A stretch of DNA of 64,000 bases, from contig NZ_CP047602.1 of NCBI RefSeq assembly GCF_009905255.1, positions 1,302,001-1,366,000 on the forward strand, read 5' to 3'. Under the pieces are notes generated by a model. It did no database searches. It worked only from the letters and a program-made list of their open reading frames with translations, and was not told the DNA's origin. Origin of the DNA: Thermoanaerobacterium aotearoense (GTDB lineage Bacteria; Bacillota; Thermoanaerobacteria; Thermoanaerobacterales; Thermoanaerobacteraceae). Position 1 is the stretch's first letter. Every line of letters starts with the position of its first letter. This document shows, piece by piece, positions 2,739 to 32,100 of the stretch. A program made the position numbers and the translations under genes.

Positions 2739-2933
2739 ATGACCAAAATTGACCAGCAAATAGAAGCCCTAAAATGGCAATTAGCTCATGATACAAACGA
2801 CAAAGACAGAGCAATACATTGGCAAGCGTTGAAGATATTACGAGATATAAAAAATGGCAAATGCACATATCAAATATTATACACGTTAGCTAAAAGGGGG
2901 TTTTGTAATGGTGAGACAAAGAGGATCGGTTAA
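2739..2933 (+). CDS. Small hypothetical protein preceding the integrase (64 aa)
   Basis: The ATG at 2739 has AAGGAGATGG upstream. The product is a 64-residue, charged, helical protein with the central sequence DKDRAIHWQALKIL. Its last 26 nt overlap the start of the integrase gene in another frame, so the two are translationally coupled. Small proteins coupled to integrases are often control or excision factors, but nothing in this sequence proves that here. Confidence 0.55.
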   Translation: MTKIDQQIEALKWQLAHDTNDKDRAIHWQALKILRDIKNGKCTYQILYTLAKRGFCNGETKRIG

Positions 2934-4035
2934 AGAAATTGTAAAAGGGAAAAAATACAAAATAAGCTTTTATATTGGAACTGATGCTAATGGGAAGCGA
3001 AAATATCATGTTGAAACTATTGAAGCCAAAAACAAGGCAGAAGCACAAAAATATTTAGCTAAAAAGTTAGTAGAATTTGATACAGGAGCATTACCTACAG
3101 GCGAGGCAAACACGACATTAAAAGATTATTTGAATGAATGGCTAAAAGTAAAAAAATCCTCAGTAGGACTTAAAACATACGCCACTTATGAATATTATTT
3201 AAAAGAATATATTATTCCCAGCCTAGGAGATTATAAAATTAAAAAGTTAGTGCCATTAATAATCCAAAGTGCATATAATGATTTAGAAGCTGCTGGTTTA
3301 AAAGGCAGTACAATACGATATATTCATAATCTACTTAATCAAGCTTTAGAACAGGCTGTAACATGGCAAATGATTAATAGAAATCCATGTAAAAATTTAG
3401 TATTGCCAAAAGCAGTTGAAAGAGAAATGAAAGTATTAACGCCAGAGCAAGCCAGAAAGTTTTTGGAAGCTTGTATTTATGATAGATTTGGCGTATTGTT
3501 TGAACTACTTCTAACATCAGGAATGAGACCAAGTGAAGTATTAGGGCTTAAATGGGAAGATGTTGATTGGAAAAATAACCGAATTACAATTAAAAGAACA
3601 TTATCCCGAGTAGGGAAGACATGGCTTTTTAAAGAAACCAAAACAAAGAATAGCCGAAGGACAATTATTTTACCATGCGAAGTTATGGAAGATTTGAAAG
3701 AACACAGAAAAAAACAAGCACAAGAAAAGCTAGAAGCTGAGGAATATAATGATTATGGGCTTGTCTTTGCGTGCAGTAATGGCAATCCATTAGGCATAAC
3801 AAATATTAAGCAACATTTTAAAGCATTACTTAAAGATACAGGATTACCAGATTTACGGCTGTACGATTTACGGCATAGCTGTGCAACACTACTGCTAGCG
3901 GCAGGCGAAAATCCAAAAGTAACAAGTGAACGATTAGGGCATAGTAACGTTGCAATAACATTAAATATTTATAGCCATGTTTTGCCTAGCATGCAGGAAG
4001 AAGCCGCAATGAAACTTGAAAATTTGCTATTTTAA
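2908..4035 (+). CDS. int: Tyrosine recombinase (integrase) of the integrated element
   Basis: This 375-residue site-specific recombinase has the three-domain Tn916/phage form: an N-terminal arm-binding domain (about 1-62), a core-binding helical domain (about 70-160, ending in RNPCKNL), and a catalytic domain (about 175-375). Catalytic residues seen are Arg207 (SGMRPSE), the lysine of the beta hairpin near 244-248, Arg322 in YDLRHS, His345 in LGHS and the Tyr355 nucleophile in IYSHV. The usual His of the HxxR box is Tyr319, a change that is tolerated in related integrases. The start has a GGGGG ribosome-binding site. The gene sits at the element edge, about 190 bp before sigK, so the attachment site should lie within 4036-4225. 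Confidence 0.95.
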   Translation: MVRQRGSVKEIVKGKKYKISFYIGTDANGKRKYHVETIEAKNKAEAQKYLAKKLVEFDTGALPTGEANTTLKDYLNEWLKVKKSSVGLKTYATYEYYLKEYIIPSLGDYKIKKLVPLIIQSAYNDLEAAGLKGSTIRYIHNLLNQALEQAVTWQMINRNPCKNLVLPKAVEREMKVLTPEQARKFLEACIYDRFGVLFELLLTSGMRPSEVLGLKWEDVDWKNNRITIKRTLSRVGKTWLFKETKTKNSRRTIILPCEVMEDLKEHRKKQAQEKLEAEEYNDYGLVFACSNGNPLGITNIKQHFKALLKDTGLPDLRLYDLRHSCATLLLAAGENPKVTSERLGHSNVAITLNIYSHVLPSMQEEAAMKLENLLF

Positions 4036-4037
4036 TT

Positions 4038-4058
4038 TTGATTGCGAGTTGATTGCGA
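4038..4058 (+). repeat. Direct repeats TTGATTGCGA x2, likely integrase arm sites
   Basis: TTGATTGCGA is at 4038-4047 and again at 4049-4058, 11 bp apart, directly after the integrase stop codon. Closely spaced direct repeats here are typical arm-type binding sites for the integrase N-terminal domain. The core attachment site itself could not be located, because the other end of the element is outside the window. Confidence 0.55.
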
Positions 4059-4225
4059 ACTGAAAAAAACTTAATAAATTTAATGGCATATAATAAAAGT
4101 TATGAGGTGGCTGAAAGCCTTATAAAATCAAGTCTTATAGTACTTTAGATAATTTTAACAATTCTCATTAAAAGTAGGCAAATCTATCTATTTAATATGT
4201 GACTTAAAATGTGGAGGTGGCGCTT

Positions 4226-4921
4226 ATGTGGGCAGCGCTTATAGCGCTTGTTACATCAATCGTGAAAGACATAATAAATTTCGGCTATTTAACAAATGCT
4301 AATTCATTTCCCCAACCTCTCACAGCAGAAGAAGAAAAAAAGTATTTTGAAGCCTTTAAAAACGGTGATGAAGAAGCGAAAAATATTTTGATAGAAAGAA
4401 ATTTAAGGCTTGTAGCTCATGTTGTAAAGAAGTACAGCAATACGGGCAAAGATGTAGATGATTTAATATCCATAGGTACAATAGGTCTTATTAAGGCGAT
4501 TTTAACCTACGATTCCTCAAAAGGAACTCATTTAGCCACATATGCTGCTCGATGCATTGAAAACGAAATATTGATGTCATTGCGAGCAGAAAAGAAGATA
4601 AAATCTGAAATATCTCTACATGATCCTATAGGAGTTGATAAAGAAGGCAATGAGATCTCGCTAATAGATATTTTAGGGACTGAGACAGATGAGGTAAGTG
4701 ATCAAGTAGAATTAAGAATGCAAGTAAAAAAACTGTACCACAAGTTAAATAGTGTCCTTAAAAACAGGGAAAAATTAATAATTGAATTAAGATATGGCCT
4801 CTTAAATGGCGGTGCAAAAACTCAACGAGAAATAGCAAAAATGTTAGGAATTTCAAGATCTTATGTGTCGAGGATAGAAAAAAAGGCATTAAACAAATTA
4901 TTTAAGGAAATGACGATGTAA
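4226..4921 (+). CDS. sigK: Pro-sigma-K, late mother-cell sporulation sigma factor
   Basis: The protein directs RNA polymerase in the mother cell late in sporulation. With the ATG at 4226 (GGAGGTGG at 4213-4220) it has 231 residues. A hydrophobic pro-sequence of 20 residues precedes Tyr21 of YLTNANSFPQPL, matching the known SpoIVFB processing position. An upstream in-frame GTG at 4211 overlaps the ribosome-binding site and is rejected. Region 2 (LRLVAHVVKKY, then the DLISIGTIGLI motif) and region 4 (REIAKMLGISRSYVSRIEKKAL) are complete. The gene is not split by a skin-type element, although an integrase ends only 190 bp upstream. Confidence 0.96.
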   Translation: MWAALIALVTSIVKDIINFGYLTNANSFPQPLTAEEEKKYFEAFKNGDEEAKNILIERNLRLVAHVVKKYSNTGKDVDDLISIGTIGLIKAILTYDSSKGTHLATYAARCIENEILMSLRAEKKIKSEISLHDPIGVDKEGNEISLIDILGTETDEVSDQVELRMQVKKLYHKLNSVLKNREKLIIELRYGLLNGGAKTQREIAKMLGISRSYVSRIEKKALNKLFKEMTM

Positions 4922-5502: not shown

Positions 5503-6354
5503 ATGGATATCAATTCTAAGACAGGTATTTTTGGTATAATAGGACATCCTATAGGGCACAGCCTATCGCCTTTGATACATAATAATGCTTTTGAAAATCT
5601 CGACTTTAATTCGGTTTACGTTTCTTTTGATGTAAAGCAAGAGGATTTAAAAGATGCAATTATGGGTGTAAAAGCATTGGGAATAAAAGGCCTTAACGTT
5701 ACTGTTCCTCATAAAGAAAGTGTGATAAAGTATCTTGATCGTATTTCAGATGAAGCAAAACTTATTGGAGCAGTGAATACAATAAGAAATAACGCTGGTT
5801 TATTAGAAGGGTATAATACTGATGTGACAGGTTTTATGGAATCACTAAAAGAACACAATGTAGATGTTGAAGGTAAGAATGCGGTTATTTTAGGTGCTGG
5901 TGGTGCTGCCAAAGCTGTGGCCACAGGATTAGCGCTTTTAGGAGCTAAGTCCATATATGTATGCAATAGATCGATAGACAAAGCAAATGAACTTAGCATT
6001 CACATAGAAAATAATTTTAACATTAAAAGCCGTGGGATTGCGTATAATGATTTAAATATGTTAGATGAGATTGATATGCTGATAAATGCAACCAGCGTTG
6101 GTATGCATCCGAATGTAGATGTGTCTCCAATCGAAGAAGATGTAGTTGCAAAAGCAAAATTTGTCTATGATATTATCTACAATCCTGAAAAGACGCTATT
6201 TCTAAGTTATGCGGAGAAATACCAGATAAGATACATTAATGGGCTTGATATGCTTGTCAATCAAGCGAATGATTCATTTAAAATTTGGACTGGAGTAAAT
6301 TTCGATAAAAAAATTATTTTAAATTTTCTTAAAAAGAAGGATTTTGTTAAATAA
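5503..6354 (+). CDS. aroE: Shikimate dehydrogenase
   Basis: AroE reduces 3-dehydroshikimate to shikimate with NADPH in aromatic amino acid synthesis. The 283-residue protein shows the substrate loop GHPIGHSLSPLIHN, the catalytic-lysine motif NVTVPHKE, the NADP-binding glycine motif LGAGGAAKAV and the C-terminal NGLDMLVNQA. Length and motifs are normal. The ATG at 5503 follows AGAG. The -35 box of the promoter for the pilus operon lies in the last codons of this gene. aroK and aroQ occur further along (16633, 19575), so the shikimate genes flank the pilus operon rather than forming one unit. Confidence 0.96.
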   Translation: MDINSKTGIFGIIGHPIGHSLSPLIHNNAFENLDFNSVYVSFDVKQEDLKDAIMGVKALGIKGLNVTVPHKESVIKYLDRISDEAKLIGAVNTIRNNAGLLEGYNTDVTGFMESLKEHNVDVEGKNAVILGAGGAAKAVATGLALLGAKSIYVCNRSIDKANELSIHIENNFNIKSRGIAYNDLNMLDEIDMLINATSVGMHPNVDVSPIEEDVVAKAKFVYDIIYNPEKTLFLSYAEKYQIRYINGLDMLVNQANDSFKIWTGVNFDKKIILNFLKKKDFVK

Positions 6355-6362
6355 TGTAGAAT
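6338..6362 (+). promoter_or_regulatory. Sigma-H-type promoter for the type IV pilus operon
   Basis: AGGATTT (6338-6344), 14 nt, GAAT (6359-6362) within TGTAGAATATAAT match the sigma-H consensus RNAGGAWWW/RNNGAATWW. The same box pair with the same 14-nt spacing precedes spo0A and spoIIAA in this window, both known sigma-H targets in Bacillus. Transcription would start just upstream of the riboswitch aptamer at 6413. Confidence 0.75.
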
Positions 6363-6412
6363 ATAATTTATGTGTGATTTTTATTTTCATAAATTTGGAT
6401 TTGATTGAGATA

Positions 6413-6477
6413 GATGATGTGAGTCTATATTTGGGCGCTTTATGACTCATTGATATAGTGGCGCAACCGGCATCATT
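6413..6477 (+). ncRNA. Class II cyclic-di-GMP riboswitch aptamer
   Basis: The leader contains the conserved parts of c-di-GMP-II aptamers: UUGGGCGCUU, GACUCAUU, and GUGGCGCAACCG. The closing helix pairs ATGATG (6414-6419) with CATCAT (6471-6476). The internal helix pairs CTATAT (6424-6429) with ATATAG. The pseudoknot pairs GCGC with GCGC where Clostridium acetobutylicum-type examples have GCAC with GUGC, a compensated change. It sits between a sigma-H-type promoter and pilB. Class II aptamers upstream of pilus genes are established in Clostridioides difficile. The family was recognised from memory of its consensus, not by a covariance search. Confidence 0.85.
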
Positions 6478-6494
6478 GTCGGGTTTATTTATTT
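6464..6494 (+). terminator. Riboswitch expression platform: alternative hairpin and U-rich run
   Basis: AACCG (6464-6468), part of the aptamer core, can instead pair with CGGGTT (6480-6485) with one bulge; this is followed by TATTTATTTT. The hairpin and aptamer are mutually exclusive, because AACCG and the 3' strand of the closing helix are shared. This predicts that c-di-GMP binding prevents the hairpin and turns expression on. The stem is short, so this is inference. Confidence 0.5.
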
Positions 6495-6507
6495 TGGAGG
6501 GGCCTTG

Positions 6508-8202
6508 ATGATAAAAAAGAAATTGGGAGATCTTCTTGTAGAAGTTGGTCTTTTAGATGAGAGTCAGCTCAATAATGCAATTAAGATACAAAAAAAGACT
6601 GGTGAAAAGTTAGGTAAAATTCTTGTAAAAGAAGGATATCTGACAGAGGAGCAAATTATCGAGGCTTTGGAGTTTCAATTGGGCATACCGCATATAGACA
6701 TGAAAAAGGTATTTATAGATGCTAATGTGGCAAAGCTTATACCTGAATCAATGGCTAAAAGGCATGTTGCCATACCTATAAAAAAAGAAAACAACAGCAT
6801 ATTTGTTGCAATGGCAGATCCGCTAAATATCTTTGCTATTGATGATATTAAACTTGTCACAAAACTTGATGTGAAGCCATTGATTGCTTCCGAAGATGGT
6901 ATACTGAAGGCCATTGACAGAGTTTTTGGAAAAGAAGAAGCTGAAAGGGCTGTCCAAGACTTTAAAAAAGAGCTAAGCCATGATAGCGCTGAAGACGACG
7001 GCAATTTATTAAGGGATATTTCAGAAGATGAGATTAACAATGCTCCTGCAGTAAGATTAGTAAATTCCATTATCGAGCAAGCGGTGAAAAACCGAGCATC
7101 TGATGTACATATAGAGCCTACTGAAAATGACTTAAGAATAAGGTTTAGAATCGATGGTGAATTGCATGAGGCAATGAGGGTATTTAAAAGCACCCAAGGG
7201 CCAGTTATCACCAGAATAAAAATCATGGCCAATATGAATATTGCTGAAAGAAGGATACCTCAAGACGGTAAGATTGAAATGAATGCAGGCGGCAAAAATA
7301 TCGATATAAGAGTTTCCTCTTTGCCTACAATCTATGGCGAAAAGCTTGTGCTCAGGATATTGGATAAAAGTGGTTATATAATCACAAAAGATAAATTGGG
7401 GTTAGGCAATGATGACTTGAAACTATTTGATAATTTGCTTAAACATCCAAATGGCATAATCCTTCTTACTGGGCCTACAGGAAGTGGGAAAACCACGACT
7501 CTTTATGCTATGTTAAACGAGCTTAATAAGCCTGATAAAAATATAATAACTGTGGAAGACCCTGTCGAATACACTCTTGAGGGATTAAATCAAGTTCAAG
7601 TCAATGAAAAAGCTGGCCTTACATTTGCTTCTGCTTTAAGATCTATACTAAGGCAGGACCCGGACATAATAATGATTGGCGAAATAAGGGATAGAGAGAC
7701 CGCTGAAATAGCTATAAGGTCTTCCATAACGGGTCATCTTGTATTATCAACATTGCACACGAATGATTCTGCAGGCGCGATAACGAGGCTCATTGATATG
7801 GGGATTGAGCCATATCTTGTTTCTTCATCTGTTGTAGGTGTCATAGCTCAAAGGTTGGCGAGAAAAATATGCGATAACTGTAAAATAGAGTATGATGCCA
7901 GCAAGAGAGAAAAGATAATTTTAGGAATTGATGCCGATGAATCTCTTAAATTATATAGATCAAAAGGATGTGCTGTTTGCAATAAAACTGGTTATCGCGG
8001 CAGAGTTCCTATATATGAGATAATGATGATGACTCCTAAGATAAAAGAGCTTACAAATGAGAAAGCTCCGGCAGATGTGATTTTGAATGAGGCTGTATCA
8101 AATGGTATGAGTACGCTTAAAGAAAGTGCTAAAAAGCTTGTCTTATCAGGTGTAACTACTGTAGATGAGATGTTACGTCTTACATACGATGATGCTTATT
8201 AA
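6508..8202 (+). CDS. pilB: Type IV pilus extension ATPase
   Basis: PilB powers pilus assembly at the inner face of the membrane. The protein (564 aa from the ATG at 6508, GGAGG at 6496-6500) has an N-terminal GspE_N domain (about 1-150, LGDLLVEVGLL opening). The ATPase core has Walker A GPTGSGKTT near residue 322, the Asp boxes EDPVEYT, Walker B IIMIGEIRD and the His box TLHTND. Four cysteines in CDNC and CAVC form the zinc site typical of PilB. It is first in an operon reaching at least pilO and controlled by the upstream sigma-H promoter and riboswitch. The TTG at 6505 is a less likely start. Confidence 0.96.
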   Translation: MIKKKLGDLLVEVGLLDESQLNNAIKIQKKTGEKLGKILVKEGYLTEEQIIEALEFQLGIPHIDMKKVFIDANVAKLIPESMAKRHVAIPIKKENNSIFVAMADPLNIFAIDDIKLVTKLDVKPLIASEDGILKAIDRVFGKEEAERAVQDFKKELSHDSAEDDGNLLRDISEDEINNAPAVRLVNSIIEQAVKNRASDVHIEPTENDLRIRFRIDGELHEAMRVFKSTQGPVITRIKIMANMNIAERRIPQDGKIEMNAGGKNIDIRVSSLPTIYGEKLVLRILDKSGYIITKDKLGLGNDDLKLFDNLLKHPNGIILLTGPTGSGKTTTLYAMLNELNKPDKNIITVEDPVEYTLEGLNQVQVNEKAGLTFASALRSILRQDPDIIMIGEIRDRETAEIAIRSSITGHLVLSTLHTNDSAGAITRLIDMGIEPYLVSSSVVGVIAQRLARKICDNCKIEYDASKREKIILGIDADESLKLYRSKGCAVCNKTGYRGRVPIYEIMMMTPKIKELTNEKAPADVILNEAVSNGMSTLKESAKKLVLSGVTTVDEMLRLTYDDAY

Positions 8203-8230: not shown

Positions 8231-9283
8231 ATGAAAACAAGTGAACTTCTGGCTATGGTTGTAGAAAAAGGCGCATCTGATTTGCATATAACAGTTGGCG
8301 TTCCTCCAGTTCTCAGGATTAATGGTCAACTTATAAAACTGAATTTACCTCAATTAACACCTCAAGATACGGAAGAAATTACAAAAGATTTGCTTTCAAG
8401 CGATGAATTAAAAAAGCTTGAAGATATGGGTGACATTGATTTGTCGTATTCAGTAAAAGGGCTTGGAAGGTTTAGAATAAATGCGTATAAGCAGAGAGGA
8501 ACATATAGCCTTGCCATAAGATCTGTCGCTTTGAGAATTCCCACAATTGATGAATTAGGACTTCCAGAAGTGATTAAAGAACTTGCGCTTAAAACCCGTG
8601 GTCTCATAATTGTTACAGGGCCTACAGGCAGCGGAAAATCTACGACATTAGCATCTATGATCGACTTAATAAACGAAGAACGCAATTGTCATATATTGAC
8701 ACTTGAAGACCCTATTGAATATTTGCATAAGCATAAAAAGAGCATAGTAAATCAAAGAGAAATTGGACATGACGCTGCGTCATACGCCAGTGCATTAAGG
8801 GCAGCATTAAGAGAAGACCCTGATGTGATACTTGTGGGGGAGATGAGAGATCTTGAGACGATACAGATAGCTATAACAGCAGCTGAGACAGGGCATCTCG
8901 TGTTATCCACTTTACATACTATAGGTTCAGCAAAGACTATTGATAGGATTATAGATGTTTTTCCACCGCATCAACAGCAACAGATAAAAGTACAGCTTTC
9001 AAATGTGTTAGAAGGGATTGTGTCTCAACAATTGCTGCCTAAAATAGACAATTCAGGGCGAGTCGTCGCTGTAGAAGTCATGATAGCCACACCTGCAATA
9101 AGAAACCTAATAAGAGAAGGTAAGTCATTTCAAATTCAATCGATGGTGCAAACCGGAAATAAATTTGGAATGGTGACAATGGACATGTGGATATCACAGT
9201 TATTAAAGAGGAATTTGATTTCTATGGATGATGCGCTTACGTATTGCGTTGACAGAGAAAACTTTTCTCGATTAGTAGTATAA
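8231..9283 (+). CDS. pilT: Type IV pilus retraction ATPase
   Basis: PilT depolymerises pili and drives twitching and DNA uptake. At 350 residues it is of normal length. It has the PilT-type N-terminus (LLAMVVEKGASDLHITVGVPP), Walker A GPTGSGKST near residue 130, LEDPIEYLH, Walker B VILVGEMRD, the His box TLHT and the PilT signature AIRNLIREGK near the C-terminus. It lies 28 bp after pilB. Having both extension and retraction motors argues for dynamic pili rather than a static pseudopilus. Confidence 0.96.
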   Translation: MKTSELLAMVVEKGASDLHITVGVPPVLRINGQLIKLNLPQLTPQDTEEITKDLLSSDELKKLEDMGDIDLSYSVKGLGRFRINAYKQRGTYSLAIRSVALRIPTIDELGLPEVIKELALKTRGLIIVTGPTGSGKSTTLASMIDLINEERNCHILTLEDPIEYLHKHKKSIVNQREIGHDAASYASALRAALREDPDVILVGEMRDLETIQIAITAAETGHLVLSTLHTIGSAKTIDRIIDVFPPHQQQQIKVQLSNVLEGIVSQQLLPKIDNSGRVVAVEVMIATPAIRNLIREGKSFQIQSMVQTGNKFGMVTMDMWISQLLKRNLISMDDALTYCVDRENFSRLVV

Positions 9284-9309
9284 GATAATGGCTTGAAAGG
9301 GTGGCTTAG

Positions 9310-10524
9310 ATGCCAACTTATACATACAAAGTAAAGGATATGGATGGAAATCTTATAACAGGCACTATGGAACTTGATACATTGTCTTCGTGTGTAGATA
9401 GCTTAAAGCAGAAAAATTATTACATATTAGATGTTAAGGAAAAAGTGGAGAAGAAGGATATTTTTGAAAGTATCAATTCTTCTCGTAAAGTGAAGGTAAA
9501 AGATATAGCTGTGTTTTGCAGGCAGTTTTCGGTTCTCATAAATGCAGGTATTCCTATTGTTGCATCACTTGCAACTTTGTCTGAGCAACTTGAAAATAAA
9601 CGGCTTAAGAAGGCCTTGAATGAAGTATATGAGGATGTGCAGAAAGGAAAAACTCTTTCCGAATCAATGAGAAAGCATCCAGATGCATTTCCGATGCTTC
9701 TATTTAACATGATAGAAGCGGGAGAAGTAAGCGGTACCTTAGACAAAGTATTAAATGAAATGGCTGAACATTTTGAGAAAGAAAATAATTTAAACCAAAA
9801 AATAAAATCAGCTTTAGCATATCCTGCAATTGTATCCATTGTTGCAGTATTGGTAGTCATATTTCTTGTCACAAACGTCCTTCCTACATTTGTAGGCATG
9901 TTTAAAAATGCGGGAGCTCAATTGCCGATGCCTACATTGATACTTTTAGGTTTAAGTGATTCTATAGCGCATTATTGGTACATATATTTGGGGAATTTCG
10001 TATTTTTGATCTTTTTGCTTTTAAGAACTATAAAGACAGATAGAGGAAAAGAGTTGTTTGATTTTTTGATGCTAAAGATGCCAATATTTGGTCCACTGAA
10101 TGTGAAGATCATCACATCAAGGTTTACGCGGACGCTGTCAACCCTTATAGGTTCAGGGATTCCACTAATGGAATCATTGTTAGTTGTAGAAAAGGTGGTA
10201 GGTAATACTGTTGTGGCAAATGGCTTAAAAAAAGCGGAAGAAGAAATAAAAAGGGGAAATGGGCTTGCATTGCCTTTGAAGAAAATCGATATATTTCCAC
10301 CAATGGTTATTCAAATGATAAAAGTGGGAGAGGATTCGGGATCATTGGACAGCATATTAAAGAAAACAGCGGATTTTTACGACAGCGAAGTCGATACAGC
10401 CGTATCGCAGATGACTACATTGATTGAACCGCTAATAATAGTTTTCTTGGCATCAATAGTCGGCTTTATAGTAGTGTCTATAGTGATGCCTATGTTCCAG
10501 ATGTACAACTTTATAGGGCAATGA
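9310..10524 (+). CDS. pilC: Type IV pilus inner-membrane platform protein
   Basis: PilC/GspF anchors the pilus machine and couples the ATPases to pilin assembly. The 404-residue protein has two T2SSF cytoplasmic domains (about 68-190 and 270-390), each followed by hydrophobic segments, including VSIVAVLVVIFLVTNVLP and the C-terminal IIVFLASIVGFIVVSIVMPM. The motif FCRQFSVLINAGIPI is typical of the family. The gene follows pilT by 26 bp and precedes the major pilin. Confidence 0.95.
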   Translation: MPTYTYKVKDMDGNLITGTMELDTLSSCVDSLKQKNYYILDVKEKVEKKDIFESINSSRKVKVKDIAVFCRQFSVLINAGIPIVASLATLSEQLENKRLKKALNEVYEDVQKGKTLSESMRKHPDAFPMLLFNMIEAGEVSGTLDKVLNEMAEHFEKENNLNQKIKSALAYPAIVSIVAVLVVIFLVTNVLPTFVGMFKNAGAQLPMPTLILLGLSDSIAHYWYIYLGNFVFLIFLLLRTIKTDRGKELFDFLMLKMPIFGPLNVKIITSRFTRTLSTLIGSGIPLMESLLVVEKVVGNTVVANGLKKAEEEIKRGNGLALPLKKIDIFPPMVIQMIKVGEDSGSLDSILKKTADFYDSEVDTAVSQMTTLIEPLIIVFLASIVGFIVVSIVMPMFQMYNFIGQ

Positions 10525-10549
10525 GATATTATGGGAAGGGGGTGAAAAA

Positions 10550-10939
10550 ATGGCATGGTTCGTGAAGGCATTAAATAAAGATGAAAAAGGTTTTACATTG
10601 ATTGAATTGATTGTAGTAATAGCAATACTTGGAATACTCGCAGCAATCGCAGTACCAAGATATACAGGTACTCTAAATCAGGCGAAAGTTAATGCTGATA
10701 AAGCAACGGCACAAACCATTGCAGAAGCGGCAGCCAGATACATAACAGATACTGGAGATACGAACGTGACTTTTACCAAATTAGTTCAGAATAAGTATTT
10801 AGATGCACAACCTACACCACAATCTGATAAAACAAATGGTTTTGTAATTAATGTAGATACAACCAATAATGTTGTAAATGTGTCTATTGGGCCCAATGGA
10901 AGCACTTTAGCTTCAGTTAAATATGAAATAATTCAGTAA
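10550..10939 (+). CDS. pilA: Major type IV pilin
   Basis: A short basic leader ending in Gly14 precedes the mature N-terminus FTLIELIVVIAILGILAAIA; Glu at mature position 5 (Glu19) is present. The mature protein is about 115 residues, with the usual hydrophobic helix and a small, threonine- and asparagine-rich globular part. A GGGGGTGA ribosome-binding site lies upstream. Placement directly after pilC and before the peptidase, and a stable hairpin after the stop codon, suggest that this is the main structural subunit. Confidence 0.93.
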   Translation: MAWFVKALNKDEKGFTLIELIVVIAILGILAAIAVPRYTGTLNQAKVNADKATAQTIAEAAARYITDTGDTNVTFTKLVQNKYLDAQPTPQSDKTNGFVINVDTTNNVVNVSIGPNGSTLASVKYEIIQ

Positions 10940-10943
10940 TTTT

Positions 10944-10962
10944 CGGGCACCATTGGTGCCCG
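10944..10962 (+). other. Stable hairpin after the major pilin gene
   Basis: CGGGCACC (10944-10951) pairs perfectly with GGTGCCCG (10955-10962) around ATT. It lacks a T-run, so it is more likely an RNA-stability or partial-attenuation element that raises pilin mRNA over downstream genes than a full terminator. Confidence 0.6.
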
Positions 10963-10988
10963 CACATACCTATATTAAGGAGGCAGAA

Positions 10989-11744
10989 ATGTTTATTCTA
11001 TACGTACTTGTTTTTATATTTGGCACAATAATTGGTAGTTTTCTAAATGCAGTCATATACAGGGTCCCCAGGAATGAGTCAATCGTATATCCTCCATCAC
11101 ATTGTGCAAATTGTCAACATGAGTTAAAGCCTTATGATTTGATTCCTATAGTAAGTTATATTGTCTTAAGAGGCAAATGCAGGTATTGTGGAAATAGAAT
11201 TTCCATAAGATATCCTATTGTTGAGCTTTTAACAGGACTTATATATCTTATTTTATTTGTATATTTTGGAATATCCATAAAGTCGCTGTCATATGCATTT
11301 TTGGCGTCATTATTGATTGTCATATCGTTTATAGATATGGAACATAAGATAATACCAAACAAAATAATATTGATAGGATTGATAGTTGGAGCATCATTTA
11401 GGTTGATTACGATTAATTACGGCGTATGGGACTATATTGTAGGCTTTTTAGTTGGCGGTGGAGTGCTTCTTTTAATATCTTTATTGTCAGGAGGTGGTAT
11501 GGGTGGCGGAGATATAAAGCTTATGGCTATGATCGGACTTTTTGTAGGATGGAAACTCACTGTATCAACGCTTTTTCTGGCAGTTGTATTAGGTGCTATT
11601 GGTGGTGTCGCCTTGATTTTGTTTAAAATTAAGACGAGAAAAGATTACATACCTTTTGGGCCCTATATAAGCATTGGTTGTGTGATTTCTATTTTATATG
11701 GATATGATTTGTTGAACCTGTATATAAAACTTATAAGAGGTTGA
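10989..11744 (+). CDS. pilD: Prepilin peptidase / N-methyltransferase
   Basis: This membrane aspartyl protease cleaves prepilin leaders and methylates the new N-terminus. The start at 10989 has AAGGAGG upstream; an in-frame GTG-type extension to 10953 overlaps the hairpin and is rejected. The 251-residue protein has the GSFLNAVIYRVP motif, the four-cysteine cytoplasmic loop (CANC and CRYC), and the two catalytic aspartates in SFIDMEHKIIPN and GGGDIKLMAM. About seven membrane helices are visible. It serves the pilin and the four minor pilins encoded next to it. Confidence 0.95.
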   Translation: MFILYVLVFIFGTIIGSFLNAVIYRVPRNESIVYPPSHCANCQHELKPYDLIPIVSYIVLRGKCRYCGNRISIRYPIVELLTGLIYLILFVYFGISIKSLSYAFLASLLIVISFIDMEHKIIPNKIILIGLIVGASFRLITINYGVWDYIVGFLVGGGVLLLISLLSGGGMGGGDIKLMAMIGLFVGWKLTVSTLFLAVVLGAIGGVALILFKIKTRKDYIPFGPYISIGCVISILYGYDLLNLYIKLIRG

Positions 11745-11748
11745 AACA

Positions 11749-12222
11749 ATGCGTTGTGTAAAAACAGATGAAAATGGATTGACTTTGATAGAGTTGATAA
11801 CGGTAGTGTCGATATTTTCTATTATCGTATTGATGGCAGTTCCAAAGACAGACTTTTTCAATGCAAAAACTTCGGAAATGCGTTTAAGAATGGTGGCATA
11901 TGAGCTTATAAGCGATATAAGGTATGTCCAGTATAAAAATATCTATGAAAATGAAAGCTTGTATTTAATGCTACAATCGGACCACAAAGAATACAGCATA
12001 TATAAGCCTGGTACAATGGTTAAAAGAATAAAGACAAAAAAATTACCTGATGGTATCAATATATATTGGAATATTCCAGAAAATATTTTAAAAATATCAT
12101 TTTCAAATCAAGGTGCTCCAATACCTGGTGGCTGTACTATAAGCTTATTAAATTCAAACAAGAGGTTAGACATAACCGTTTTGCCTGCTACAGGAAGAGT
12201 AATGATAAAAGGGAATTATTGA
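11749..12222 (+). CDS. Minor pilin, GspH-like
   Basis: This 157-residue protein has a class III prepilin signal: Gly10 then LTLIELITVVSIFSIIVLMAV, with Glu at mature position 5. The rest is a small globular domain with beta-strands (YSIYKPG, ITVLPATGRVMIKG) in the style of GspH/FimT minor pilins. It starts 4 bp after pilD. Minor pilins of this class prime pilus assembly at the tip. The FimT/GspH assignment rests on the signal and length. Confidence 0.82.
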   Translation: MRCVKTDENGLTLIELITVVSIFSIIVLMAVPKTDFFNAKTSEMRLRMVAYELISDIRYVQYKNIYENESLYLMLQSDHKEYSIYKPGTMVKRIKTKKLPDGINIYWNIPENILKISFSNQGAPIPGGCTISLLNSNKRLDITVLPATGRVMIKGNY

Positions 12223-12233
12223 GGTGAAGCAAG

Positions 12234-12971
12234 TTGAAATATTTAAAAAATGCATTGGGCATGACACTTATTGAAGTTCTTGTAGCAATAGCGCTATTTT
12301 CGATTGCGGCTATACCTCTTTTAGGCGTTTTTCATGAATCAGTAATTACAAATGCAGATTCCAAAATCAGAACAAAAGAAGCTACTATTGCACAAAGTAT
12401 TGCGGAGGACATAAAGGCGGGAAATATAAAGAATAACGACGATTTACAAAAAAAAGTATTTCCAGAAATTCAAGAGGGATATTATTTATCTGTGCCTGAA
12501 AATCCTCAATCTATCGGAAATGGACTTATGAAATATAAGTTTCAAGTCAATTATCGGTACAAGACCAATTTAGTATATACGCTTTACGTAGTTGCACCAG
12601 CAACAAATGTTACTGCATACACACCACCGACTGTTAATATCCCAGGTGGAAGTACTATTAATTATAGAGATATATCTAATATATTTACTGTTTTTGCGTG
12701 GGGTGCATTAGCTGCATTATTATTCTTATATCCTATTGTAAAATTGGATTTAATTAGTGCATTTGGCACAGTGTTTGGGGCTATTTTTGATGCTATTGAT
12801 ATTTGGAAAATATTTAATTTTCCGTATATATTGAAAGATGGCTATACTTTAAAGACAATTGCAGATGAGATATCTGCTAAAATTAGGAATATAAACTTTC
12901 CACCAGCATTGCAGTGGTGGGATCCAAATTTCGACTGGAGATGGTTATTTGATCCTACGAAATGGAAATAA
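12234..12971 (+). CDS. Minor pilin with an unusual hydrophobic C-terminal region (PilV-like N-terminus)
   Basis: The prepilin signal is Gly9 then MTLIEVLVAIALFSIAAIPLL, with Glu at mature position 5, as in PilV/GspI proteins. Residues 40-135 form the expected globular part. From about residue 148 the protein departs from the family: a second hydrophobic stretch (FAWGALAALLFLYPIV), a further amphipathic part (LISAFGTVFGAIFDAI) and a tryptophan-rich end. At 245 residues it is long for this class. The extension may be a second membrane anchor or a bulky tip domain. The gene overlaps the next by 23 nt. Confidence 0.78.
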   Translation: MKYLKNALGMTLIEVLVAIALFSIAAIPLLGVFHESVITNADSKIRTKEATIAQSIAEDIKAGNIKNNDDLQKKVFPEIQEGYYLSVPENPQSIGNGLMKYKFQVNYRYKTNLVYTLYVVAPATNVTAYTPPTVNIPGGSTINYRDISNIFTVFAWGALAALLFLYPIVKLDLISAFGTVFGAIFDAIDIWKIFNFPYILKDGYTLKTIADEISAKIRNINFPPALQWWDPNFDWRWLFDPTKWK

Positions 12972-13413
12972 AGGTTTTACGTTAATTGAACTTTTGGTTG
13001 TATTATCCTTAATAGGCTTGATAGTGTCGATATATGCCACATTGTATTATTCTGGATATAAAACATACTCAAATGTTGTTAATAATTCTGATGTAGAACA
13101 GAATGTTAGATATGCTATGACGTACATTATGAATAAGGTTAATCAATGTTCTGATAAGAGTAAAATTGCTCCTTATAGCATTAATGGATATACAGGAATA
13201 AAAATCGATGATAAAAACATTATTCTCTACAATAGTCAATTACATAAGCTGTTTGATTATTTAAACAATGGAAACGAAATAGCTACAAATATATATGATT
13301 TTTCTGTTACTCCTTCTACTGATGGAACTATTATTAATGTTAAAATAGTTGGTCAGAAAAGCGATGGTACCGGTAAGATTACATTGGAGTCAGATATATA
13401 CTTAAGGAAGTGA
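12949..13413 (+). CDS. Minor pilin, PilW/GspJ-like
   Basis: The TTG start at 12949 lies inside the end of the previous gene, with GGAGATGG upstream. The 154-residue product has the prepilin signal Gly9 then FTLIELLVVLSLIGLIVSIYA, with Glu at mature position 5, and a globular domain carrying NNSDVEQNVRYAMTYI, the conserved region of PilW/GspJ. The 23-nt overlap indicates translational coupling, presumably for equal amounts of the two minor pilins. Confidence 0.82.
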   Translation: MILRNGNKGFTLIELLVVLSLIGLIVSIYATLYYSGYKTYSNVVNNSDVEQNVRYAMTYIMNKVNQCSDKSKIAPYSINGYTGIKIDDKNIILYNSQLHKLFDYLNNGNEIATNIYDFSVTPSTDGTIINVKIVGQKSDGTGKITLESDIYLRK

Positions 13414-13423
13414 AATAATTTTA

Positions 13424-14026
13424 ATGAATGATAAAGGTTCTGCCTTAATATTCACTTTGATTATAATACTTATATTGTCTGTGCTTGCGTTGTCTATTTT
13501 AGATATCTCTTTATTTGAATACAAAACTTCTTATGCATATGGCAATTCAATCACAGTAGATAATGCTGCAGAGGCTGGATTAGACACAGCAAAGGGTGTG
13601 TTTAATAAAAGTTTATTTGATAATTTAAATAATTTGATAAATAATACAGCTAATACATTAATAAATGAATATAATTCTTTGATTCCTCCTCAAACAGTTC
13701 CAAAAGAGGTTATGTATGAAGCGATATATCAGGCAGTTAGGCAATATCTTGAAAACAATGTTTTTAATGCGTATCAAAATTATCAATTTTATTTAGATGA
13801 TAAAAATACGATCTCTGTAACTATTTCATATATTAAAATAACTGATTTTCAGCCTTTTGACGGGACAAATATTTTGCCTAAGTATACAATAAGAATAGAA
13901 ACTATAGGAAATTTTAAAAATTTAAAAAGATACGGTCATGCTTTTATTGTTCTTGATTTAAATAAATCTGGCAATCCAATTTCAATAAGCAGTTGGGTTA
14001 TCGATAATACACCACCATCAAGCTAA
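13424..14026 (+). CDS. PilX-like minor pilin/assembly protein
   Basis: The N-terminus MNDKGSALIFTLIIILILSVL gives a short leader ending at Gly5 and a membrane helix. Mature position 5 is not Glu, as is common in PilX and GspK proteins. The motif DNAAEAGLDTAKGVF in the next 50 residues is the typical PilX_N region. Length is 200 residues. It closes the minor-pilin block before comFB. Confidence 0.8.
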   Translation: MNDKGSALIFTLIIILILSVLALSILDISLFEYKTSYAYGNSITVDNAAEAGLDTAKGVFNKSLFDNLNNLINNTANTLINEYNSLIPPQTVPKEVMYEAIYQAVRQYLENNVFNAYQNYQFYLDDKNTISVTISYIKITDFQPFDGTNILPKYTIRIETIGNFKNLKRYGHAFIVLDLNKSGNPISISSWVIDNTPPSS

Positions 14027-14040
14027 AGGAGAGATGATAA

Positions 14041-14316
14041 ATGGAGTTAAAAAATTTTATGGAAGAAGCAGTGAAAGATGTCATTGATAATGTATTAAAA
14101 GATTTAGATGTATGCAAGTGCGATAAATGTAAACTCGATATAATGGCATTAACCCTAAACAATTTGCCTCCTAAATATTACGACACAGAAAAAGGTGAGG
14201 TGTATACAAAAGTCAATGAATTAAAAAGGCAATTTGAGGTAGATATCATTAGTCAAATCACAAGATCAGCTTTTTACGTTAATCAACATAGGCGCCATGG
14301 AGAGGATATTAAATGA
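14041..14316 (+). CDS. comFB: ComFB-family protein, possible cyclic-di-nucleotide receptor
   Basis: The 91-residue protein matches the late-competence ComFB family: NFMEEAVKDVIDNVL, then CKCDKCKLDIMALTLNNLPP, then KYYDTEKGEVYTKVNEL. The three cysteines in CxCxxC and the LPPKYY motif are diagnostic. ComFB proteins have recently been reported as cyclic-dinucleotide receptors that affect competence and motility. Its place between minor pilins and pilM, in an operon headed by a c-di-GMP riboswitch, supports a role in signal-dependent pilus control; this is inference. Its stop overlaps the pilM start by 4 nt. Confidence 0.88.
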   Translation: MELKNFMEEAVKDVIDNVLKDLDVCKCDKCKLDIMALTLNNLPPKYYDTEKGEVYTKVNELKRQFEVDIISQITRSAFYVNQHRRHGEDIK

Positions 14317-15272
14317 TAGGCATTGATATAGGCAGCTTTTACACTAAGATTGGCAGTTGCGATAAAAAAAATGATAAATTAAATAATATGGTGATAGAAA
14401 GAACACCTCAAAATTGCATTAGAAATGGATATTTGAGCGATATAAATGTATTATCTGATTTCCTTAATGAAATATTAAAGAAGAAATTTGCAAAGGAAAA
14501 GAAGCTATCCTTTTGCATTTCAAGCACAGATATAATAATTAGAGAAATAGTAATGCCATTTATGAAAGATGATGAATTAAAGAATGCCTTAAAATATGAA
14601 ATTGTTCAGTATATACCTAATTCAGACGACTATGTTGTTGATTATAAGCAAATTGGGCATGATGAAGATGATAAAAAGATAAGGACAATTATTGTGGCAG
14701 CACCGAAAGAAATGATTTCAGGGTATTTGAACTTAGCTAAAACATTGAAATTGAGATTGGAAATCATAGATATATATAGCAATTGCATTTATAAGTCGAT
14801 AAAAAAATTATGTAAACCAACAGGAAGTGTATCGGTGATTAATATTGGTGCAGAGTATGCAGATATTACGATAATAAATGAAGGCAAATATGCATTTAGC
14901 AGAATAGTAAAATTCGGAGGAAATGATATAAATGAAATAATTGCCAATATGTTTAATACAGATTTTAAAACTGCTGAAGAATATAAAAGGGGAAAACCTT
15001 TTTTTATAGATGATGAAAATTATGCGAGTCTTAGAGAGAATACAGAGAAATATGTAAGCATTAAATTGAGTGAAATATCGAGGGTTTTTGATTTTTTTGA
15101 ATCATCTTACCATAAAAGCATAAACGAAATTTTTCTAATTGGCGGAACGTCAAGGCTTACGGGGCTTAAAAGATATATAGAAGATTATTTTAAAATACCT
15201 GTTTCAGGCAATGATGACGATCTATATACATATTTTATGCCTGCATTTGGCTCTTTGATTAGGGGGGAGTAA
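14313..15272 (+). CDS. pilM: Type IV pilus assembly protein PilM (actin-like ATPase)
   Basis: PilM binds the N-terminus of PilN on the cytoplasmic face and helps organise the alignment complex. The 319-residue protein has the actin-fold phosphate-1 motif MIGIDIGSFYTKIG, the second phosphate motif VINIGAEYADITII and the adenosine motif IFLIGGTSRLTGLK. It is translationally coupled to comFB and followed closely by pilN. Confidence 0.92.
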   Translation: MIGIDIGSFYTKIGSCDKKNDKLNNMVIERTPQNCIRNGYLSDINVLSDFLNEILKKKFAKEKKLSFCISSTDIIIREIVMPFMKDDELKNALKYEIVQYIPNSDDYVVDYKQIGHDEDDKKIRTIIVAAPKEMISGYLNLAKTLKLRLEIIDIYSNCIYKSIKKLCKPTGSVSVINIGAEYADITIINEGKYAFSRIVKFGGNDINEIIANMFNTDFKTAEEYKRGKPFFIDDENYASLRENTEKYVSIKLSEISRVFDFFESSYHKSINEIFLIGGTSRLTGLKRYIEDYFKIPVSGNDDDLYTYFMPAFGSLIRGE

Positions 15273-15273
15273 T

Positions 15274-15804
15274 TTGAAAGATATTAATCTTATACCCGAT
15301 GAGATAAAATTACTTGACGAAAAAAGGAAAAAGAATACCGTTGCCATGATAGGCGTTTTGATTGCGACTTTTGCGCTTATTTTTATTTTACTTTTGCCAA
15401 ATATGTATATCAACAATTTAGAAAAGCAAAAGTCTGCTTTAAACATCCAATTAAGCAGTTTAAAAGCAAAGAAAGATATGTATTCAACTATTAAAAGTAA
15501 AGAAGATTATTATTCAGAAAAAGAAAAAATAATAAAAGATTTGTCTAATAAAAAATTGAACATGACGGAAATGCTCAATGATATTTCGTCTAATATTCCA
15601 GAAAATGTTTCAATAACGGACATAAAATTTAATGGAAGTATGTTAGAAATAACAGGCGATTCTTATATGAATAAATACTTATCTGATTTCATGATGAATC
15701 TGAGAAAGTTAAAATATGTAGATGATGTTGATCTCTTAGATACAAAAAAATCTGATAACGGTTTGATTCAATATACTTTGCAAATTAAGATTAAGGTGGT
15801 ATAA
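15274..15804 (+). CDS. pilN: Type IV pilus assembly protein PilN
   Basis: The TTG start at 15274 has GGGGGGAGT upstream. The 176-residue protein begins KDINLIPDEI, the conserved PilN peptide that docks into PilM (INLLP-type motif). One membrane helix (about 25-45), a coiled coil and a small ferredoxin-like domain follow. Its position between pilM and pilO confirms the assignment. Confidence 0.9.
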   Translation: MKDINLIPDEIKLLDEKRKKNTVAMIGVLIATFALIFILLLPNMYINNLEKQKSALNIQLSSLKAKKDMYSTIKSKEDYYSEKEKIIKDLSNKKLNMTEMLNDISSNIPENVSITDIKFNGSMLEITGDSYMNKYLSDFMMNLRKLKYVDDVDLLDTKKSDNGLIQYTLQIKIKVV

Positions 15805-15808
15805 TTAT

Positions 15809-16600
15809 ATGAAACTGACCACGAGAGAAAAAATGCTAATAGGGGTATTGTTTATTGTCGCCTTCGTTGGCTTATATTATCAGTTTGTTTTAACAAAACA
15901 ACTGGCAATAGTAGATAAATTAAGACATGACATCATGACGTTACAGACAGAGGTGAATGATTACAATACATTAAGTGTAGATAAAATGAAAAACCGTTTA
16001 TCAGAGCTTGATAGGCAAATTGAAACATGCAATGAAGAACTTCCTGACAATGAAAATATTGAAAGCTTTGTAGTTTTGCTTGATGATGCAATCGCAAAGA
16101 CTGGTGTAAATTTTGAAGAGTTGAATTTTAATTCAACCGATAATCAATCGCAGAGTCCTGAAAATCAAACAAATAATAACAAAACCAGCAAGACAAAATA
16201 TGTAGAGATTCCTGTCAATATAAAAGTTGCAGGCGACTATTCAAAATTATCGAGTTTTATTGAAGAACTACAATCAATGCAAAGGCTTAGCAATATAAAA
16301 TCATTTGAGATAAGTAAAGATAATGAATCTAATAATTTACTGTTAAATATAGATATTGCGATATATTCCATGAGCAAAAAGGGTGGAAGCAATTTGAATC
16401 CATTTGAGGAAAGTGGGAAAAGTGATCCTTTTAAATCATTAGTTGAAGCGAATAAAGAAAATCAAAATACAAACGTTAATTCAAACAATCAGAATTCTTT
16501 GCAAGGAATTGACATAAACAAAATTATTTCAGATAGTATAAACAGTGCAATAAATAATGTTTCTAAAATTGCACCACCTACAGCAGCAAATAAGCAGTAA
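15809..16600 (+). CDS. pilO: Type IV pilus assembly protein PilO
   Basis: The 263-residue protein has one N-terminal membrane helix (about 8-27), a coiled coil (about 30-75), and a ferredoxin-like domain with [20 protein letters not shown], the conserved PilO signature. The last 60 residues are low-complexity and asparagine-rich ([16 protein letters not shown]). It heterodimerises with PilN. It is the last pilus gene; no secretin or lipoprotein (PilQ, PilP) follows, as expected for a Gram-positive envelope. Confidence 0.9.
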
Positions 16601-16632
16601 GAAAGTTATGCGTATTGGAGGATAAAATTTTA

Positions 16633-17148
16633 ATGAAGAACATCGCATTAACCGGATTTATGGCTACAGGAAAGACAGTTGTTGGCAAAAGAGTTGCTGA
16701 TATTTTAAGCTTCAGCTTTATTGATACTGATGATTTGATTGAAAAAATTTCTGGCATGAAGATTCCGGAAATTTTTGATAAATACGGTGAAAAATATTTT
16801 AGAGGAATTGAAAAAATTGCTGTTGCAAGAGCTTCCAGATTAAAAAATCATGTCATATCGACTGGTGGTGGTGTTGTATTAAATCCTTCTAATATAGTAC
16901 AATTGAGAAAACATGGCGTAGTTATATGCTTAAAGGCAAATCCAGAGGTAATTTTGAGAAATATTGGAGATAATGACAAAAGACCAATACTTGCTACTGG
17001 TGACGTTTATGAAAAGATAAAAGCTCTTTTAGCAGAAAGACAGCACTATTATGAATTTGCAGATTATACTATTGATGTTTCAAATATGTCTATAAATGAT
17101 GTGGCTTTGACAGTAGTAGATGTATATTCGAAATTAAAAACAAGATAA
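16633..17148 (+). CDS. aroK: Shikimate kinase
   Basis: AroK phosphorylates shikimate with ATP. From the ATG at 16633 (GGAGG at 16617-16621) it has 171 residues. Seen are the P-loop [12 protein letters not shown], the shikimate-binding DTDDLIE and FRGIEKIA, and the STGGGVV motif. An in-frame TTG at 16615 overlaps the ribosome-binding site and is not the start. It follows pilO by about 30 bp and may be read from the pilus transcript, with proB next. Confidence 0.95.
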
Positions 17149-17162
17149 AAAGTCGAGGGCAG

Positions 17163-18263
17163 ATGAATATGAAAATTGTCGTAAAAGTCGGAACAAGCAC
17201 ATTGACTTATGAAAACGGAAAATTGAATTTAGAAATGATGGAAAAAATTGTACGTCAAATATCTAATTTGCAAAACAAAGGCGATAAAGTTGTTCTTGTG
17301 ACATCTGGTGCAATTGGAGCTGGAATGGGAAAACTAAATATTTTGAAAAGACCTAAGACACTACCGGAAAAACAATCGTTGGCGGCAATTGGACAAGGAT
17401 TGCTGATTGGACTATATGAAAAATTTTTTAATGAATATGGGAAGACTACAGCTCAGCTTTTACTTACAAAGGACGATTTTTCTATAAGAGAAAGGTACTT
17501 AAACATAAGCTATACATTATCAAACTTATTAAGGTATAATGTAGTTCCAATCATAAATGAAAATGATACTGTTACTGTAGATGAAATAAAAATAGGTGAC
17601 AATGATACTCTATCAGCACTTGTAGCAAGCATTGTAGAAGCGGATCTTTTAATTATATTGACTGATATTGATGGGCTATATGATAGAGATCCTAAAGCAG
17701 ATGGAGCTAAGCTGATAGATGTAGTTTATGATTTTTCTGATGCGCTTTTTGAAATTGCTGGTGGCTCTGGCACAGATTTTGGCACAGGTGGTATGTATAC
17801 GAAGATTCAAGCGGCAAAAATTTGTTACAACTCAGGTGTCAAAATGGTAATTGCCAATGGCAAGCTTGATAATGTTTTAAACAAGATTGTAGCAGGTGAA
17901 AGAATAGGGACAGTTTTTATGCCTGCTAAAAATCCTATCAGCAATAGAAAGGTATGGATCGCGTTCAATGCACAATTATCAGGTAAGCTGACTATTGATG
18001 ATGGGGCAAGACAGGCCATACTTGAAAATGGAAAAAGCTTATTGCCAAGTGGTATTATATCAACTGATGGAGAATATTCTGTAGGGGATTGTGTATCAAT
18101 ATATGATGAGCATGGAAAAGAGATTGCAAGAGGTTTGATTAATTATACATCTGACGAAGTTAGCAAAATAAAGGGTTTAAAATCAACTGAAATAGACAAA
18201 GTTTTAGGATATAAAAATTACGATGAAGTTGTCCACAGAGACAATTTAGTTGTCATAGTTTAA
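17163..18263 (+). CDS. proB: Glutamate 5-kinase
   Basis: ProB makes gamma-glutamyl phosphate, the first step of proline synthesis, and is normally feedback-inhibited by proline. The 366-residue protein has the amino-acid kinase domain (VVKVGTSTLT; VTSGAIGAGMGKL; INENDTVTVDE; TDIDGLYDRDP; the GTGGMYTKIQAA motif) and a C-terminal PUA domain from about residue 270 (SGIISTDGEYSVGDCVSI). The two-domain form is typical. proA follows after 44 bp. Confidence 0.96.
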   Translation: MNMKIVVKVGTSTLTYENGKLNLEMMEKIVRQISNLQNKGDKVVLVTSGAIGAGMGKLNILKRPKTLPEKQSLAAIGQGLLIGLYEKFFNEYGKTTAQLLLTKDDFSIRERYLNISYTLSNLLRYNVVPIINENDTVTVDEIKIGDNDTLSALVASIVEADLLIILTDIDGLYDRDPKADGAKLIDVVYDFSDALFEIAGGSGTDFGTGGMYTKIQAAKICYNSGVKMVIANGKLDNVLNKIVAGERIGTVFMPAKNPISNRKVWIAFNAQLSGKLTIDDGARQAILENGKSLLPSGIISTDGEYSVGDCVSIYDEHGKEIARGLINYTSDEVSKIKGLKSTEIDKVLGYKNYDEVVHRDNLVVIV

Positions 18264-18279
18264 CTTAATAGTGTATAAT
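18250..18279 (+). promoter_or_regulatory. Candidate sigma-A promoter for proA
   Basis: TTGTCA (18250-18255) and TATAAT (18274-18279) are separated by 18 bp at the proB/proA junction. The -10 box is perfect. It would allow proA to be expressed separately from proB. Confidence 0.45.
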
Positions 18280-18307
18280 AAAATGTTGTGTAAGGAGGAC
18301 TAAAAAT

Positions 18308-19552: not shown

Positions 19553-19574
19553 ATTTTAAAGTGAGGTTTTTAAT

Positions 19575-20021
19575 ATGAAGAGAGTTCTTATTATACATGG
19601 GCCGAATTTGAATCTGACTGGTAGCAGAGAGATAAGCATTTACGGAGAGGTAAGTTTTGATGAAATAAACAATATAATTAAGAGAGAAGCTTCGAAACTT
19701 GAGTTGGCTGTCAAAATTCAGCAGTCTAATAGCGAGGGTGAGATCATAGATTTTATTCATTCTGCAAAGAATAATTTTGATGCCATAATAATAAATCCTG
19801 GTGCTTACTCACATTATAGCTATGCAATAATGGATGCAATAGGTGCTATAGATATACCAGTAATAGAGGTGCATCTTTCAAACATACAAAAAAGGGAAGA
19901 TTTTCGGCATGTTTCTGTGACTGCTACTAAATGTCTTGGACAAATATCAGGTTTTGGACCTTTTAGCTATGTCTTGGCTTTAAATGCAGTTAAATTATTA
20001 GAAGACAATTTAAAGGAGTGA
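19575..20021 (+). CDS. aroQ: Type II 3-dehydroquinate dehydratase
   Basis: AroQ converts 3-dehydroquinate to 3-dehydroshikimate. The 148-residue dodecameric-type enzyme has the opening [14 protein letters not shown], the active-site tyrosine in [37 protein letters not shown] and [15 protein letters not shown]. All key residues are present. It lies 22 bp after proA and 4 bp before the peptidase gene. Confidence 0.97.
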
Positions 20022-31466: not shown

Positions 31467-31495
31467 TTGATACAAATACATAAAAATGCTATAAT
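31467..31495 (+). promoter_or_regulatory. Sigma-A promoter of the OLE RNA
   Basis: TTGATA (31467-31472), 17 bp, TATAAT (31490-31495). Transcription would start near 31502, a few bases before the closing helix of OLE RNA at 31507. The RNA can therefore be made independently of ispA. Confidence 0.8.
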
Positions 31496-31506
31496 CAATA
31501 TCGACA

Positions 31507-32078: not shown

Positions 32079-32100
32079 AGTACATAGGAGGATTTTATTA

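Follow-up and report, generated by a model that had tools for sequence, protein, structure and literature searches.

A 64,000-nucleotide stretch of the genome of Thermoanaerobacterium aotearoense, a thermophilic spore former (NZ_CP047602.1, positions 1,302,001 to 1,366,000; hereafter the window), carries aroE and, downstream of it, a type IV pilus operon that begins with pilB. The aroE stop is at 6354 and the pilB start codon ATG at 6508, leaving a gap of 153 nt. Along this leader we found, in order, a sigma-H-type promoter site, a c-di-GMP-II aptamer, a hairpin, a U-rich stretch, a Shine-Dalgarno sequence and pilB. The features are as follows.

6336-6364, plus strand: sigma-H-type promoter, with the −35 element GAAGGATTT (6336-6344), an 11-nt spacer and the −10 element GTAGAATAT (6356-6364)
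6398-6479, plus strand: c-di-GMP-II riboswitch aptamer (RF01786, full length, 47.1 bits, E 3.4e-9, 601 bases searched)
6410-6412, plus strand: 5' strand of the short helix, AUA, pairing with 6454-6456 (UAU); compensatory A-U / G-C change between genera
6419-6425, plus strand: 5' strand of the main stem, GUGAGUC, pairing with 6444-6450 (GACUCAU)
6435-6438, plus strand: pseudoknot strand, GCGC, pairing with 6461-6464 (GCGC); compensatory G-C / A-U change
6467-6482, plus strand: terminator-like hairpin CCGGCA-UCAU-UGUCGG, followed by a U-rich tract at 6484-6495
6508-8202, plus strand: pilB, extension ATPase with an N-terminal MshEN-type c-di-GMP-binding motif (T2SSE, 458 bits)
8231-16600, plus strand: remaining type IV pilus operon (Pfam and NCBIfam matches), with pilT, pilC, a pilA-type pilin, pilD, minor pilins, a PilX-like gene, ComFB, pilM, pilN and pilO
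14041-14316, plus strand: ComFB-family gene, between the PilX-like gene and pilM (PF10719, 84.2 bits, cut-off 25)

A previous sequence-only reading of the window had placed the promoter and the aptamer between aroE and pilB, and the gene order aroE, leader, pilB, pilT, pilC, pilin, pilD, minor pilins, ComFB, pilM, pilN and pilO was confirmed. The start of pilB is probably ATG 6508, preceded by the Shine-Dalgarno sequence GGAGG at 6496-6500, and not TTG 6505. The genes at 8231-16600 are separated by gaps of −23 to 26 nt, and the type IV pilus set is all present, including the extension and retraction ATPases, the PilC platform, the prepilin peptidase, the pilins and PilM/N/O. PilB scored 643 bits with the equivalog model TIGR02538, slightly under its cut-off of 675.65.

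Downstream of pilO, aroK, proB, proA and aroQ (window 16600-20021) follow with gaps of 14-44 nt, so that, in the absence of internal promoters, these housekeeping genes may be transcribed together with the pilus genes. On the other side of the locus, a tyrosine recombinase gene lies directly 5' of a sigma factor gene resembling sigK (236 aa; window 2908-4921), an arrangement that suggests an element inserted beside the sigK-like gene.

The aptamer and its expression platform

As the sequence-only reading had anticipated, a covariance search with RF01786 gave a full-length match in the leader, yet the match does not reach the gathering score of 53.5, a shortfall for which the poor helix P1 is mainly responsible. 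A default Rfam scan therefore misses the aptamer, and the standard scan of the window gave OLE RNA only. That OLE RNA is full length, at 31495-32090 (517 bits).

The aptamer had been described as complete. This was borne out for the pseudoknot, the helices other than P1 and the conserved core (GAUGA, UGGGCRC and GYGCAACCGG), and was slightly generous in that P1 is poorly formed. By inspection, P1 is good in Thermoanaerobacter (AUAAAG/CUUUAU) and poor in Thermoanaerobacterium.

Single-sequence folding of the leader was no better than that of shuffles (z −0.48); as this was uninformative, we used covariation instead. Among 12 distinct pilB leaders, standard pairs occupied 98.7% of the pair cells, compared with 23-54% when the partner was slid. 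One compensatory pair each was found in P2 (the short helix), in P3 (the main stem, 98.8% of cells paired, U-A / G-C) and in the pseudoknot (100% of cells paired), where GCGC/GCGC is, as claimed earlier, a true compensated counterpart of GCAC/GUGC in Thermoanaerobacter. The compensatory changes mostly track one split between the two genera, and thus represent few independent events. Judged by RF01786 and these three changes, the riboswitch is of the c-di-GMP-II class and is predicted to bind c-di-GMP.

In the 3' part of the leader, a search for terminator-like hairpins found one, with 0.1 expected, and its 5' arm is the conserved CCGG at the aptamer 3' end. With its 5-6 pairs the hairpin is short, its energy at 60 °C is about −3 to −5 kcal/mol, and the U tract is interrupted. 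The copy in the window has −9.0 kcal/mol at 37 °C and −5.1 kcal/mol at 60 °C; the corresponding values in Thermoanaerobacter are −7.2 and −3.0 kcal/mol. Of the 12 distinct leaders counted, 11 have the hairpin and one, from a Thermoanaerobacter genome (G016), does not. Since the 5' arm is the aptamer's own CCGG, the bound aptamer and the hairpin should be mutually exclusive, which favours an ON switch. In C. difficile, all four of the four class II switches, pilA1 included, are ON (PMC6200980). We infer that the riboswitch before pilB is likewise of the ON type, acting through a hairpin that reuses the aptamer CCGG.

It is unlikely, in our view, that the riboswitch is mainly translational, so that in the ligand-free state GCCUC, the 3' strand of the main stem, pairs with the Shine-Dalgarno sequence GGAGG and the ligand sets it free. 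This pairing occurs in the minimum-energy folds of Thermoanaerobacter, and G016 keeps it though it has no terminator hairpin; however, the pairing is unavailable in Thermoanaerobacterium (GACUCA), where the conserved element is the terminator-like hairpin. A mixed transcriptional and translational mechanism is possible. An OFF switch, by which c-di-GMP would repress the pilus operon, seems quite improbable. With P1 weak, the platform can be read in more than one way, and class I c-di-GMP switches are OFF in C. difficile (PMC6200980), but the hairpin shares its CCGG with the conserved core of the aptamer and is therefore disfavoured when the ligand is bound, and the class II switches of C. difficile act in the opposite sense.

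We give just as little credence to the view that the Thermoanaerobacterium pilB aptamer is decaying and no longer senses its ligand, leaving sigma-H control alone. The score under the Rfam cut-off and the weak P1 would fit such a decay, as would the altered GAUGA in one Thermoanaerobacterium genome (G004) and the core bases lost in one Thermoanaerobacter genome (G019), but nine species retain the core residues and, P1 apart, the helices, and there are compensatory changes between the genera.

Conservation of the sigma-H-type promoter and the aptamer

The promoter was originally noticed as AGGATTT (6338-6344) and GAAT (6359-6362), 14 nt apart, and both elements fall within a site that matches the full consensus RNAGGAWWW-N11-RNNGAATWW at 18 of 18 positions. 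An exact site arose by chance in 371 of 200,000 Markov resamplings of the 300-nt region (~0.2%), and the genome contains 75 exact sites compared with 5 for the reversed control pattern. In the same window, exact sites precede spo0A (39977; TIGR02875, 406 bits) and spoIIAA (50320; TIGR02886). Further exact sites precede dnaG, parB-like, hpf, two copies of spoVS, hfq, HU, minC, ftsL-like, flgB and cheW genes, all named from their inspected translations; among the 75, none lies immediately before comEC (1196848). Because exact sites precede spo0A, spoIIAA, dnaG, hpf and spoVS, we read the motif as that of sigma-H, and the genome has a sigH gene (TIGR02859, 369 bits). By its other target genes and the presence of sigH, the sigma factor predicted to act at pilB is sigma-H.

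The −35 element lies inside the last aroE codons, starting at the third codon position (phase 2) in Thermoanaerobacterium and at the first (phase 0) in Thermoanaerobacter. Its retention in two different aroE frames indicates that the DNA element, not the protein, is what is conserved. We also tested an ordinary sigma-A promoter, with TATAAT as the real −10 and the sigma-H resemblance incidental, and consider it very improbable: 8 of 9 Thermoanaerobacterium leaders have a perfect TATAAT across the sigma-H −10, with AGGATT 18 nt upstream of it, but no more than 2 of 6 positions of AGGATT agree with TTGACA, TATAAT is absent from Thermoanaerobacter, where AGGA and GAAT persist at 11-nt spacing, and the same two elements are retained at outgroup pilB genes.

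When relatives were searched with RF01786, all nine Thermoanaerobacterium genomes had two matches, one at pilB and a stronger one elsewhere, and 9 of 10 Thermoanaerobacter-group genomes had one match, before pilB. The Thermoanaerobacter pilB leaders reach up to 68 bits, and most exceed the gathering score. In these two genera, each of the 27 c-di-GMP-II leaders has an exact 18/18 sigma-H site just upstream; in Thermoanaerobacterium 9 of them belong to pilB and 9 to the second copy, and in Thermoanaerobacter 9 belong to pilB. Such a site is missing from all 64 c-di-GMP-II leaders taken from elsewhere in the phylum (two sets, 24 and 40). In Thermoanaerobacter the sigma-H −10 abuts the aptamer, placing the expected start, by inspection, at the first P1 bases.

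At outgroup pilB genes from two families (G020, G021, G022 and G023), the sigma-H site matches at 17-18 of 18 positions and there is no aptamer; L144, with the same PilB as G020, also has the site without an aptamer. An in-frame TGA noticed in outgroup pilB genes was the normal stop codon only. A third genus of the same family (G009) has a degenerate sigma-H site at pilB, and a Caldanaerobacter-like genome (G013/L146) has neither element there. Conversely, an aptamer without a sigma-H site precedes pilB in Clostridium caldaquaticum and one other Clostridia genome (L149, L151). Since outgroups have the sigma-H site and no riboswitch at pilB, the riboswitch appears to have been added second. Most simply, sigma-H control of pilB predates the riboswitch in this bacterial order, the riboswitch having been inserted later between promoter and gene.

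The second aptamer unit and the supply of c-di-GMP

The following features outside the window bear on the same signal.

G000:176926-177180 (L052 3427-3680): second aptamer unit
G000:176969-177052: second c-di-GMP-II aptamer, with a sigma-H site at 176926
G000:2304147-2305808 (with its sigma-H site, to 2305866; L127), minus strand: GAF-GGDEF diguanylate cyclase gene with a GGEEF site

The second aptamer unit is conserved in nine Thermoanaerobacterium genomes. Directly 3' of the aptamer is a terminator that, at −13.5 kcal/mol at 37 °C, is strong. After some 40 conserved bases comes another strong terminator, and no reading frame bearing a Shine-Dalgarno sequence was seen between the two. The only ATG frame of the unit is shifted among species, and the sequence beyond the unit differs between them. 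By its appearance it stands alone and is non-coding, which makes it a candidate for a small RNA gated by c-di-GMP. The merRNA of Bdellovibrio bacteriovorus is likewise a c-di-GMP aptamer transcript without a conserved downstream reading frame; it is 445 nt, massively expressed and proposed to store c-di-GMP (PMC3627812). Unlike merRNA, the unit described here has one terminator directly behind the aptamer and another further on.

As for the supply of c-di-GMP, the genome gave 4 GGDEF, 0 EAL and 5 HD_5 domain matches. The GAF-GGDEF gene listed above carries a sigma-H site at its start, which matches at 18/18 positions in 7 of 8 Thermoanaerobacterium genomes and at 17-18/18 in 5 of 5 Thermoanaerobacter-group genomes; it was not seen in the outgroup families examined.

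c-di-GMP may also be received by proteins of the operon. The PilB MshEN motif scored 69.6 bits with NF053729 (cut-off 38, residues 5-57), and the N terminus has two 24-residue motifs with a 5-residue spacer, in which 10 of 11 and 9 of 11 key positions are found in close relatives; the MshEN consensus has been widened to K at the first position (PMC11731258). The same two (R/K/L)LG motifs, similarly spaced, are known from the MshEN and GSPII ATPases V. cholerae MshE, C. perfringens PilB2 and T. thermophilus PilF (PMC11656802, PMC11731258). In those systems c-di-GMP acts on the protein, whereas here the same signal would act on the mRNA too. Cyanobacterial ComFB binds c-di-AMP and c-di-GMP (PMC12313861), and the ComFB of this operon is possibly a second cyclic-dinucleotide receptor. 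Elsewhere in the genome, a candidate c-di-GMP-I element (G000:445107-445156; L283 1501-1550) scored 34.0 bits (cut-off 35), about 300 nt 5' of a CheW-like gene.

A predicted two-input switch for the pilus operon

Both elements that the sequence-only reading had joined into a logical AND are real and conserved, and stand in the claimed order of promoter, riboswitch and pilB. We consider it likely that the leader is a two-input switch responding to sigma-H AND c-di-GMP, set in a coherent feed-forward loop, with an ON riboswitch that works through the hairpin. The AND-gate reading follows from the anatomy of the leader and is strengthened by the conserved sigma-H site on the diguanylate cyclase gene; with such sites at both places, a coherent feed-forward AND gate would result.

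In the proposed mechanism, sigma-H RNA polymerase, active in the transition state, would start transcription about 7-9 nt after 6364, and the nascent RNA would fold into the c-di-GMP-II aptamer with its putative ligand site. Without ligand, CCGG would pair forward into the short hairpin, followed by U-rich RNA, and transcription would stop; with c-di-GMP, the aptamer would retain CCGG and transcription would continue into pilB-pilO. Sigma-H would also drive the diguanylate cyclase gene, supplying the ligand with a delay, and the PilB motor, by way of its MshEN motif, is probably a second point of action for c-di-GMP. Pili would then be built only in transition-state cells that also hold c-di-GMP, and they could plausibly serve DNA uptake as well as surface attachment.

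Transcription running on from aroE could escape sigma-H control. In G004, a near-consensus sigma-A promoter (TTGTCA-17-TATAAT; L036 ~1000-1040) lies between the sigma-H site and the aptamer, and this, together with the TATAAT over the −10, suggests that gating there is less than strict. Early sporulation in C. difficile is inhibited by c-di-GMP (PMC8653836), so the period in which active sigma-H and high c-di-GMP overlap could be brief.

The riboswitch type was already known, as the sequence-only reading had pointed out, from the C. difficile pilA1 operon, where the class II aptamer Cdi-2-4 likewise lies in the 5' UTR of a type IV pilus operon and gives read-through and expression with c-di-GMP (PMC6200980). 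Unlike Cdi-2-4, the aptamer described here lies before pilB and behind a conserved sigma-H promoter, a pairing that we did not find described for C. difficile in the papers searched. In Staphylococcus aureus, SigH controls the comG and comE operons and so drives a type IV-pilus-like DNA-uptake machine (PMC3486894); no riboswitch is described there, whereas the operon here has the full type IV pilus set with PilT, PilM, PilN and PilO. Our literature search found no paper combining c-di-GMP-II, sigma-H and pili, nor one on a Thermoanaerobacterium riboswitch and c-di-GMP, but most subscription journals were outside its scope, so it is weak evidence of novelty. The leader thus appears to pair a sigma factor and a riboswitch class that are each already known, a combination for which we found no description and which is strongly conserved and mechanistically readable.

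More tentatively, and with somewhat more doubt than confidence, we suggest that in Thermoanaerobacterium all detected c-di-GMP-II switches are under sigma-H, which also drives the diguanylate cyclase, and that this loop would commit transition-state cells to pili and not to sporulation alone. As one of these switches would control a conserved non-coding RNA, the same gate may make or lengthen a small RNA.

Sporulating bacteria must choose among several transition-state programmes, and in this leader of 170 nt two global signals, the starvation-phase factor sigma-H and the surface signal c-di-GMP, would physically meet. Outgroups with the first input only indicate which part of the gate came first. 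Thermoanaerobacterium and Thermoanaerobacter include species that are reported to be naturally competent and are used in biofuel work, which gives the result a direct bearing on the timing of pilus formation in them.
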